Source: Candidatus Aegiribacteria sp. (GTDB lineage: Bacteria > Fermentibacterota > Fermentibacteria > Fermentibacterales > JCC-6). Taken from it: a stretch of 37,970 bases of DNA. Both the position numbers and the translations under genes were made by a program. The stretch spans positions 1 through 37,970 of the forward strand of contig JAIOQY010000213.1 of the NCBI GenBank assembly GCA_021108435.1, read 5' to 3'. Positions 31,912-36,503 of the stretch are shown one piece after another. Position 1 is the first letter of the stretch, and every line of letters begins with the position of its first letter. The notes under the pieces were generated by a model. It saw only the letters and a program-made list of their open reading frames with translations. It did no database searches and was not told where the DNA came from.

Positions 31912-33069
31912 CTAAAGAAGTCTGGATGCAATATCCTCAACCCGATCGGTCTTCTCCCATGAGAATGCTCCATCGTGTCCAGGTTCTCTACCAAAATGAC
32001 CAAAAGACGAAGTTTTGCTGAAAACAGGCTTTTTCAATCCAAGATATTCTATGATACCATACGGCTGCAGAGGAAAAATATCCCTTATTGCAGTCTCAAC
32101 CGCAGAGATATCGGAGATTTTTTCCGTTCCGAATGTCTCAACCATAACAGAGACCGGTTCTGCCTGGCCTATTGCGTAGGCAAGCTGTATCTCACACCTG
32201 TCAGCAATCCCGGCTTCAACAAGGTTTTTAGCGATGTAACGTGCCATATATGCTGCGGAGCGATCTACCTTTGTGGAATCCTTGCCTGAAAATGCTCCGC
32301 CTCCGTGACGCCCTGTGCCACCATATGTATCGACAATGATCTTCCTGCCGGTAAGGCCGGTATCACCGTGCGGCCCGCCTATGGCAAATCTGCCTGAGGG
32401 GTTGAAAAGGAGTTTACCTGTCCATTGAAGATGCGGTTTGCACAACTCAAGAACAGGGGACACTACTTTTTCGCGAATGTCTTCAATCATATCTTCGGTT
32501 CCCGCATCCGGAGCATGGTGTACCGAGAGTAGAATCTCATCAATGGATACAGGCCTGAAACTCTCATATTCAACAGTTACCTGGCTTTTTGCGTCAGGTC
32601 TCGCCCATTGCAGTTCTCCTGCCAGACGTATTTCCCTGAGTTTTTCAAGAAGCCTGTGAGCAAGCTGTATCGGGTAAGGCATATGCACTTCGGTCTCGCA
32701 GCAGGCAAATCCGAACATCAATCCCTGATCTCCGGCTCCCTTATTGTCTACAACACCATGATCAATATCCGGAGACTGAGAGTGTATCCGGATTTTGTAT
32801 GTATTTTCATCATAATGAAAACCAAGATCCGGTTGATCGTACCCAATGGATTTGATAGTATCTCTGGCGACTTTCTCATAATCAACCTGGGCATGGCTCT
32901 TCACTTCACCAGCCAGCAGGCAGAAATTGGTAGTCACCAGGGTTTCACAGGCCACATGAGCATTTGGATCAAAGGCAAGGTGCGCGTCAAGAACGGCATC
33001 TGATATCTGGTCACAGATTTTATCAGGATGACCCTCGGAAACGGATTCGCTGGTAAACAGTCTTCCCAT
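31912..33069 (-). CDS. metK: S-adenosylmethionine synthetase
   Basis: 385 residues. ATP + methionine to SAM. Starts GRLFTSESVSEGHPDK, then CDQISDAVLDA, the conserved GAGDQGLMFG, the phosphate-binding GGGAFSGKDSTKVDRSAAY and GRFAIGGPHGDTGLTGRK. ATG at 33069 with GGAAGGG about 9 nt upstream; a TTG at 33087 would put the start inside that site, so it is rejected. Its leader carries a SAM-II type riboswitch and a terminator, so SAM probably represses this gene and the genes co-transcribed behind it (envC-like, holB, ricT, metG, GT4, DUF2334). Confidence 0.97.
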   Translation of the reverse strand: MGRLFTSESVSEGHPDKICDQISDAVLDAHLAFDPNAHVACETLVTTNFCLLAGEVKSHAQVDYEKVARDTIKSIGYDQPDLGFHYDENTYKIRIHSQSPDIDHGVVDNKGAGDQGLMFGFACCETEVHMPYPIQLAHRLLEKLREIRLAGELQWARPDAKSQVTVEYESFRPVSIDEILLSVHHAPDAGTEDMIEDIREKVVSPVLELCKPHLQWTGKLLFNPSGRFAIGGPHGDTGLTGRKIIVDTYGGTGRHGGGAFSGKDSTKVDRSAAYMARYIAKNLVEAGIADRCEIQLAYAIGQAEPVSVMVETFGTEKISDISAVETAIRDIFPLQPYGIIEYLGLKKPVFSKTSSFGHFGREPGHDGAFSWEKTDRVEDIASRLL

Positions 33070-33100
33070 GACTATAAACCCTTCCAATCTGACAGCCGAA

Positions 33101-33125
33101 GAAAAATAGCCGCCTGCCGGCGGCT
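33101..33125 (-). terminator. Intrinsic terminator in the metK leader
   Basis: On the minus strand AGCCGCC-GGCA-GGCGGCT (33108-33125) is a perfect 7-bp GC-rich stem with 4-nt loop, followed by ATTTTTC. It lies 14 nt downstream of the SAM-II aptamer and about 30 nt before the metK ATG, the position of a transcription attenuator. Confidence 0.8.
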
Positions 33126-33138
33126 TGAGGTTGCTATC

Positions 33139-33192
33139 GGCTTTTTAGCACTTTTTTTAACGTGGTTGCAATAGACCTCAAATCATTCCACG
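33139..33192 (-). promoter_or_regulatory. SAM-II riboswitch aptamer upstream of metK
   Basis: Read on the minus strand, 54 nt. P1: CGTGG (33188-33192) pairs with CCACG (33161-33165). The P1 loop holds TGATTTGAGG and TATTGCAA; the 3' part holds GTGCTAAAAAGCC. These match the SAM-II consensus blocks (TGATTTA, TATTGCAA, GCTAAAAAG). The pseudoknot pair that is CC with GG in the well-studied SAM-II RNA appears here as GG (33176-33177) with CC (33139-33140), a compensatory change. The predicted transcription start (about 33193) abuts P1. The downstream gene is metK, a known SAM-II target. Judged from memory of the consensus; not computed. Confidence 0.82.
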
Positions 33193-33199
33193 AAGCTTA

Positions 33200-33227
33200 A
33201 TAATATGAGTTATCCCGATGAAGTCAA
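33200..33227 (-). promoter_or_regulatory. metK promoter
   Basis: Minus strand TTGACT (33222-33227) and TATTAT (33200-33205) with a 16-bp spacer, each 5/6 to the sigma70 consensus. The start site falls at about 33193, one base before the riboswitch P1 stem. Confidence 0.7.
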
Positions 33228-35464: not shown

Positions 35465-36469
35465 TTATCTCAGAATCACTATTCGATCTACTGTCACTGT
35501 ATTTCCGGAGTTAACTTCAGCGAAATACACTCCAGAAGCATTAAGACTGAAATCGGCGGATATCCCTTCCTTTATCGTTCCCGTGGCAACACATCTTCCC
35601 GAAGTATCATAAATACTGAGTTCCCCGCCGGATTCGGGAAGGTTAAAGGCATTTATCGTAAAATTCCCGGTGGATGGATTTGGATAAACGTCAAGTTGAA
35701 TATCACCGTCAGCAGCACCTGCTTCGCCTTCTTCAATTCCGACTACAGCACCGAGGTAGTCGAACCAGGCGTTATAAACCTCTTTCGATGATCCATGATT
35801 CTGAACAAAAACTGCCAGCTCTACATACTCGAAATCAAAAGTACCGGTGTCATAATCGACAATCAGATCTAAAGTATCCGGATAAGTGGGTCCGAAAACT
35901 ATCGATTCTCCTACCGGACCGAATAGCTCGTCTCTGAATGCCTGTTCAAAAACTGAATTCGACCAGTAACCGGCTCCTGGTATATTGCTCTCGATAAGAA
36001 CAGCGTTGCAGAAAATATCATCTCCTCCCAGATCCTGTTCCGCTATGAGCGTTATAATTATCGATCCGGCGCCACCTGAAGTTGAGTTTGCGACCTGTAT
36101 CTCCAGAAAACATGGAACCGCAATTCTATTATTGAATGCGTTGTTCAGACCTGATCCGCTGGTACTCGCTTTGATAACTCCATCAAATTGAAGCCACGGA
36201 ACGGAGTTAACACCGTACAGCTGTACTCTGTGCCACTGTTCATAGTTATTCTGATTGTATATCGGATCACCGTTGCCAGGCCACCAGACATGAGGTCTGA
36301 TTACGGCGAGATCATCCGGATGACTGTCTACAAAATTGTTTAATGTTTGCTCAAAACTCCAGCATGGCCCACACTGATAGTTCGTGAAATCTTCCAGTAG
36401 AACAACTCTGTCAGCACCAAACAGGAGAACTGAAAGTACCAGTAATATTATGATATATACAGAACGCAT
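35465..36469 (-). CDS. Omp28-like thioredoxin-fold protein with type IX sorting domain
   Basis: 334 residues. Start is ATG at 36469 with AAAGGA 6 nt upstream; signal peptide SVYIIILLVLSVLLFGA. The first domain begins VVLLEDFTNYQCGPCW, a thioredoxin-like strand with the redox motif CGPC at about 31-34, followed by YGVNSVPWLQFDG with the cis-Pro loop; this is the Omp28-type arrangement. A beta-sandwich middle follows. The last ~75 residues are a T9SS type A sorting domain: VYPNPSTGNFTINAF, LSIYDTSGRCVATG, GVYFAEV and VDRIVILR. Probably an exported thiol protein delivered to the surface. The gene has its own promoter at 36504-36531. Confidence 0.85.
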   Translation of the reverse strand: MRSVYIIILLVLSVLLFGADRVVLLEDFTNYQCGPCWSFEQTLNNFVDSHPDDLAVIRPHVWWPGNGDPIYNQNNYEQWHRVQLYGVNSVPWLQFDGVIKASTSGSGLNNAFNNRIAVPCFLEIQVANSTSGGAGSIIITLIAEQDLGGDDIFCNAVLIESNIPGAGYWSNSVFEQAFRDELFGPVGESIVFGPTYPDTLDLIVDYDTGTFDFEYVELAVFVQNHGSSKEVYNAWFDYLGAVVGIEEGEAGAADGDIQLDVYPNPSTGNFTINAFNLPESGGELSIYDTSGRCVATGTIKEGISADFSLNASGVYFAEVNSGNTVTVDRIVILR

Positions 36470-36503
36470 TGTTATTCCTTTCTGAAAATAGAAATTCATA
36501 TAA

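Follow-up and report, generated by a model that had tools for sequence, protein, structure and literature searches.

The window, that is, the whole 37,970-nucleotide stretch of DNA analysed here, carries metK, the gene for S-adenosylmethionine synthetase, on its minus strand (31912–33069, ATG start at 33069; TIGR01034, 523.8 bits against a cut-off of 309.4, with three Pfam domains). All features described below lie on this strand. A probable Shine-Dalgarno sequence of metK, GGAAGGG, was read at 33079–33085. Farther upstream lie a sigma-70-type promoter, the aptamer of a putative SAM-II riboswitch (33135–33197, 65 bases 5' of metK) and an intrinsic terminator hairpin (33108–33125). Also in the window, 35465–36499 on the minus strand encodes a secreted protein whose C-terminal sorting domain is of T9SS type A (TIGR04183), a pointer to the wider Bacteroidota/FCB group.

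The metK leader and its aptamer

The promoter consists of a -35 hexamer, TTGACT (33222–33227), and a -10 hexamer, TATTAT (33200–33205), separated by 16 bases. TTGAC is found at the same place in 13/13 leaders of the genus, and a TATYAT-like hexamer in nearly all of them. The 3' end of the promoter (33227–33200) is seven bases 5' of the aptamer's first helix, P1, and transcription is therefore predicted to start near 33193, next to P1. This agrees with the initial annotation, which had the start site abutting P1.

In the stretch read, 33400–32900, the blocks of the aptamer named by that annotation are all present, in SAM-II order. P1 pairs CGUGG (33188–33192) with CCACG (33161–33165), both strands being identified from the sequence and the alignment. 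The loop block TGATTT (33185–33180) contains the UUU of loop 1 (33180–33182), which corresponds to the triplex strand of the SAM pocket (PMC3764141). The 5' strand of the P2a pseudoknot, GGU (33175–33177), as supported by the covariation analysis, is followed by the loop block TATTGCAA (33173–33166), of which UAUUGC (33168–33173) makes up the P2b side of the pocket. The 3' block GTGCTAAAAAGCC (33151–33139) includes the GCUAAAAA block of P2b and the SAM pocket (33142–33149) and the P2a 3' strand, GCC (33139–33141). Within P2, GG at 33177–33176 pairs with CC at 33140–33139.

A cmscan search matched RF01726, the SAM-II long-loop family, to 33135–33197 with 46.4 bits against a cut-off of 44, over the full length of the model (positions 1–60 of 60). 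This was the only Rfam match above gathering in the full window and, in a whole-genome search, the sole SAM-II match in the 2.9 Mb genome (RF01726, E 1.2e-7). The initial annotation had named RF00521; a significant SAM-II match was indeed obtained, but RF00521 scored 35.4 bits at the metK leader, under its cut-off of 36. RF00521 was dropped on that score, and RF01726 is the better family for the element.

No SAM-I riboswitch was found in the window's own genome. In another genome of the phylum, G035, contig C72 bears three SAM-I matches (L150–L152; 65, 62 and 28 bits) besides that genome's SAM-II. The G+C content of C72 is 0.33–0.39 versus 0.42, and since it is poorer in G+C this contig may be a contaminant. 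If the SAM-I matches are real, both classes would occur in one genome, a combination unseen in any species by a 2007 survey.

Distribution and conservation in the phylum

Relatives were sampled as 42 genomes of the phylum, belonging to nine genera. Among named genomes, a metK scan gave no close relative, the best identities being 52–57%. RF01726 matched 35 of the 42 at E <= 0.001, in 9/9 genera and once per positive genome, and 19/42 genomes had a match above the curated cut-off. Comparison of coordinates in the 35 genomes placed every match directly 5' of metK. The element thus lies upstream of a methionine/SAM gene with a promoter close by, and this gene is metK in every case. Seven genomes were without the element: the search gave no metK in four (G009, G012, G017 and G020), the 5' end of metK was lost at a contig end in two (G002 and G023), and one (G024) had a broken metK fragment. 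Since metK was absent from the search, cut or broken in all seven, every intact metK 5' region seen bears the element.

Methionine synthase genes were also surveyed. MetE (PF01717) was found in none of the 42 phylum genomes. A MetH-type methyltransferase domain (PF02574) was present in 39/42, in no case with SAM-II. Methionine synthase looks as if it were split in the window's genus, where PF02965, the MetH activation domain, is partial and occupies its own frame near a 298-aa methyltransferase frame (G000 contigs C80 and C35).

The 35 leaders, 33 of them distinct, were aligned, with SAM-pocket positions taken from crystal structure 2QWY (PMC3764141). None of the 35 leaders departs from UUU in loop 1, from UAUUGC or from CUAAA, and the G before CUAAA is kept in 33/35 and is A in two. 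In metX numbering, the pocket nucleotides U10–U12, U20–C23 and G42–A47 are invariant, the equivalent of G42 being the position with A in two leaders.

Pairing is also maintained. In P1, 98.8% of cells are paired, and the outer pair (1-32) occurs as C-G (17 distinct rows), U-A (9) or U-G (5), with both sides changed in 9 leaders. In P2, 94.9% of cells are paired; pair 17-53 is G-C in 32 distinct rows and A-U in one, which is the single double change there, and pair 18-52 is U-G, C-G or U-A in 28/33. Because two of the three P2 pairs hardly vary, covariation inside the phylum backs the pseudoknot, taken alone, only thinly. When P1, P2 and the terminator are scored jointly, 92.9% of cells are paired with 28 double changes; the joint covariation score was matched by 0/500 shuffles, and pairing was far above that of any slid version. 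The P2 pairs had been described as swapped relative to the metX RNA. That description compares the element with one sequence; what stands is the retention of pairing between P2 strands that depart from both Rfam consensuses, together with the changes at 17-53 and 18-52 inside the phylum. The two refuting checks proposed with the initial annotation both came out in its favour, with a significant Rfam SAM-II match (RF01726) and with P1 and P2 conserved and covarying in the metK leaders of relatives. The metK leader element is almost certainly a SAM-II riboswitch, to judge from its sequence and that of its relatives.

Terminator, linker and possible control of metK

The initial annotation overlooked an intrinsic terminator between the aptamer and the gene, the arrangement looked for in a riboswitch that acts by attenuation. 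The hairpin, AGCCGCC-GGCA-GGCGGCU (33125–33108; -14.1 kcal/mol), has a stem that covaries across genera and is followed by a U-tract, AUUUUUC (33101–33107). A U-tract is present in 33/35 leaders and absent in genera g5 and g9. Native partners give the terminator arms far better pairing than do partners taken from other genera (pairing energy; 0/20000 genus permutations reach the native value).

Two further motifs flank these elements. UCGGCU (33094–33099) follows the U-tract, and hence is transcribed only once the point of termination has been passed; its complement, AGCCGA, is at the aptamer 3' end. UCGGC is found in 13/13 leaders of the genus and is also kept in g2, and the g9 counterpart of the TCGGCT/AGCCGA pair is AGTCGGAT/ATCCGACT. 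On the other side, an inverted repeat with a conserved GGAACCCTTTACCGGTTTC overlaps the promoter region in g3 leaders (L004, L019, L028 and others), about 20–45 bases 5' of P1; it is perhaps the terminator of the upstream gene or an operator.

Between the aptamer and the terminator, an ACCUC pyrimidine block is complementary to the GAGGU strand of the pseudoknot. The linker and this strand change together in several cases, within and between genera (GAGGT/ACCTC, GAGGCG/CGCCTC, GGGG/CCCC and GGGGTGT/ACGCCTC). The resulting candidate alternative helix, AT1, has a 5' strand, UUUGAGGU (33175–33182), that overlaps the P2a strand and the pocket, and a 3' strand, ACCUCAAG (33124–33131), which shares its final two bases with the start of the terminator stem. 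When AT1 strands were swapped between genera, 14/20000 permutations reached the native pairing. AT1 touches or enters the terminator stem in 25/35 leaders, with an overlap of one to four bases; among the 35 leaders, the helix was absent in genera g6 and g9. Its covariation in the alignment is weak (49/500 shuffles reach its score), and is understated because MAFFT shifts CCUC by one or two columns in five of the g3 leaders. Another pairing, AT2, between the P2 3' strand and the right arm of the terminator, is clear in a few leaders; it was rejected as the mechanism, 489/500 shuffles reaching its covariation.

These features suggest that the metK leader is probably an OFF switch acting by SAM-dependent transcription termination. 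The RNA would begin just 5' of P1. Abundant SAM would bind the pocket of UUU, UAUUGC and GCUAAAA and lock P2 (GGU with GCC). With the P2 strands held in the pseudoknot and unavailable elsewhere, the terminator at 33125–33108 would close fully and transcription would stop short of metK. At low SAM, the P2 5' strand UUUGAGGU would instead pair with ACCUCAAG, dismantling the aptamer; AT1 would take over the bases that close the terminator and polymerase would proceed into metK. We infer SAM binding, repression and the part of AT1 in preventing termination from the layout of the leader, and the chances that AT1 is the antiterminator appear evenly balanced. In equilibrium folds for the window's genus, the mean probability of the bottom three terminator pairs was 0.86 in the free RNA versus 0.94 with the aptamer strands held out, and in most leaders the SAM-free RNA still formed the terminator beside AT1. 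The small AT1 overlap, the weak AT1 covariation and the retention of the terminator in SAM-free folds leave attenuation likely and make the AT1 step less firm.

The same folds bear on a different reading, in which the SAM-II riboswitch is accompanied by a constitutive terminator and the effect of SAM is on translation or on the stability of the RNA, as reported for S. meliloti metA. The hairpin folds stably with or without the aptamer, two genera are without the U-tract, and the terminator of the S. meliloti metA SAM-II is predicted to be unresponsive to SAM (PMC9373788). In some genera, the CCUC linker could also pair with GAGG in the Shine-Dalgarno region. The window's Shine-Dalgarno sequence (33085–33079), however, is more than 50 bases past P2 and outside the pseudoknot, and G011 and G016 combine a GGGG P2 strand and a CCCC linker with a Shine-Dalgarno region that is still GAGAGG. 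We regard this reading as unlikely. Rather unlikely, too, is a variant of the termination model with an unusual expression platform. In it, the whole phylum would share an ancestral metK switch present in single copy, and the helix that the pseudoknot strand forms would border the terminator nearly without overlap, so that antitermination would come about by tethering or blocking the base of the hairpin and not by the usual strand exchange.

Relation to known SAM riboswitches

SAM-II was described in 2005 with a promoter just before P1 and, in many cases, a terminator between P2 and the gene (PMC1273637). The present leader shares both of these with SAM_alpha (RF00521), along with the same pocket and the OFF behaviour expected of it. 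It differs in scoring below the RF00521 cut-off and in its gene, the proteobacterial targets being metY, metA, metX, hom, metC and metW, with metK not among them (PMC4239095). The long-loop form, reported from Bacteroidetes and marine metagenomes (PMC2864571), is closer: P1, UUU, UAUUGCAA, the GCUAAA block and P2 occur in the RF01726 model in the same order and with the same spacing. The P2 of the model is of the ACUG/CAGU type, whereas here it is GGU/GCC, and here the gene is metK and the phylum is one that the published accounts consulted do not name.

The metX SAM-II of the Sargasso Sea (PDB 2QWY) has identical pocket nucleotides and a short P2a, as here (PMC3764141). It is translational, its P2 strand bearing the Shine-Dalgarno sequence, whereas in the metK leader P2 is free of a Shine-Dalgarno sequence and a terminator follows. 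Predicted termination has a studied case in S. meliloti metZ (PMC9373788). At the time of a 2007 survey, the way in which transcriptional SAM-II switches work had yet to be established by experiment (PMC2258182).

SAM-V, found before metY in marine bacteria, has a nearly identical pocket (PMC6061858), and ligand drift is known for SAM-I (PMC10853860). The element could be a pseudoknot of the related SAM-V class, or a relative of SAM-II whose ligand has changed, for instance to SAH. Here, though, the region gave no SAM-V match up to E = 1, the linker is a run of A in place of a P3 hairpin, and P2a holds no Shine-Dalgarno sequence. The uridines that sense the charged sulfur, U11 and U21 (metX numbering), are invariant, and the downstream gene is metK in every case, which makes either of these identities very improbable. 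A chance resemblance or a decayed, functionless relic, as might be read from an RF00521 score just under cut-off with nothing else found, can be set aside almost entirely, as nearly every pocket base is kept in 35 leaders from nine genera while the flanks diverge, and P1, P2 and the terminator covary.

The SAM/SAH, SAM-III and SAM-Chlorobi leaders of metK exert feedback on the same gene through different folds, and are set apart from the present element by their descriptions. Published lists of SAM-II name alpha-, beta- and gamma-Proteobacteria, Bacteroidetes and marine metagenomes, and the element plausibly widens this range, as the initial annotation had suggested. A literature search under the presumed lineage names found nothing linking the host lineage to riboswitches. 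The RNA and its layout are already known; new, at most, are the host lineage and metK as the sole target.

A small SAM sensor placed ahead of the sole metK of a little-studied phylum offers a lead on how SAM is controlled there. The 33 distinct leaders with their matched terminators would be useful material on the transcriptional operation of SAM-II. In the published work consulted, SAM-II acts on genes of methionine biosynthesis and not on metK, so a phylum with SAM-II before metK alone would present the class in direct product feedback.
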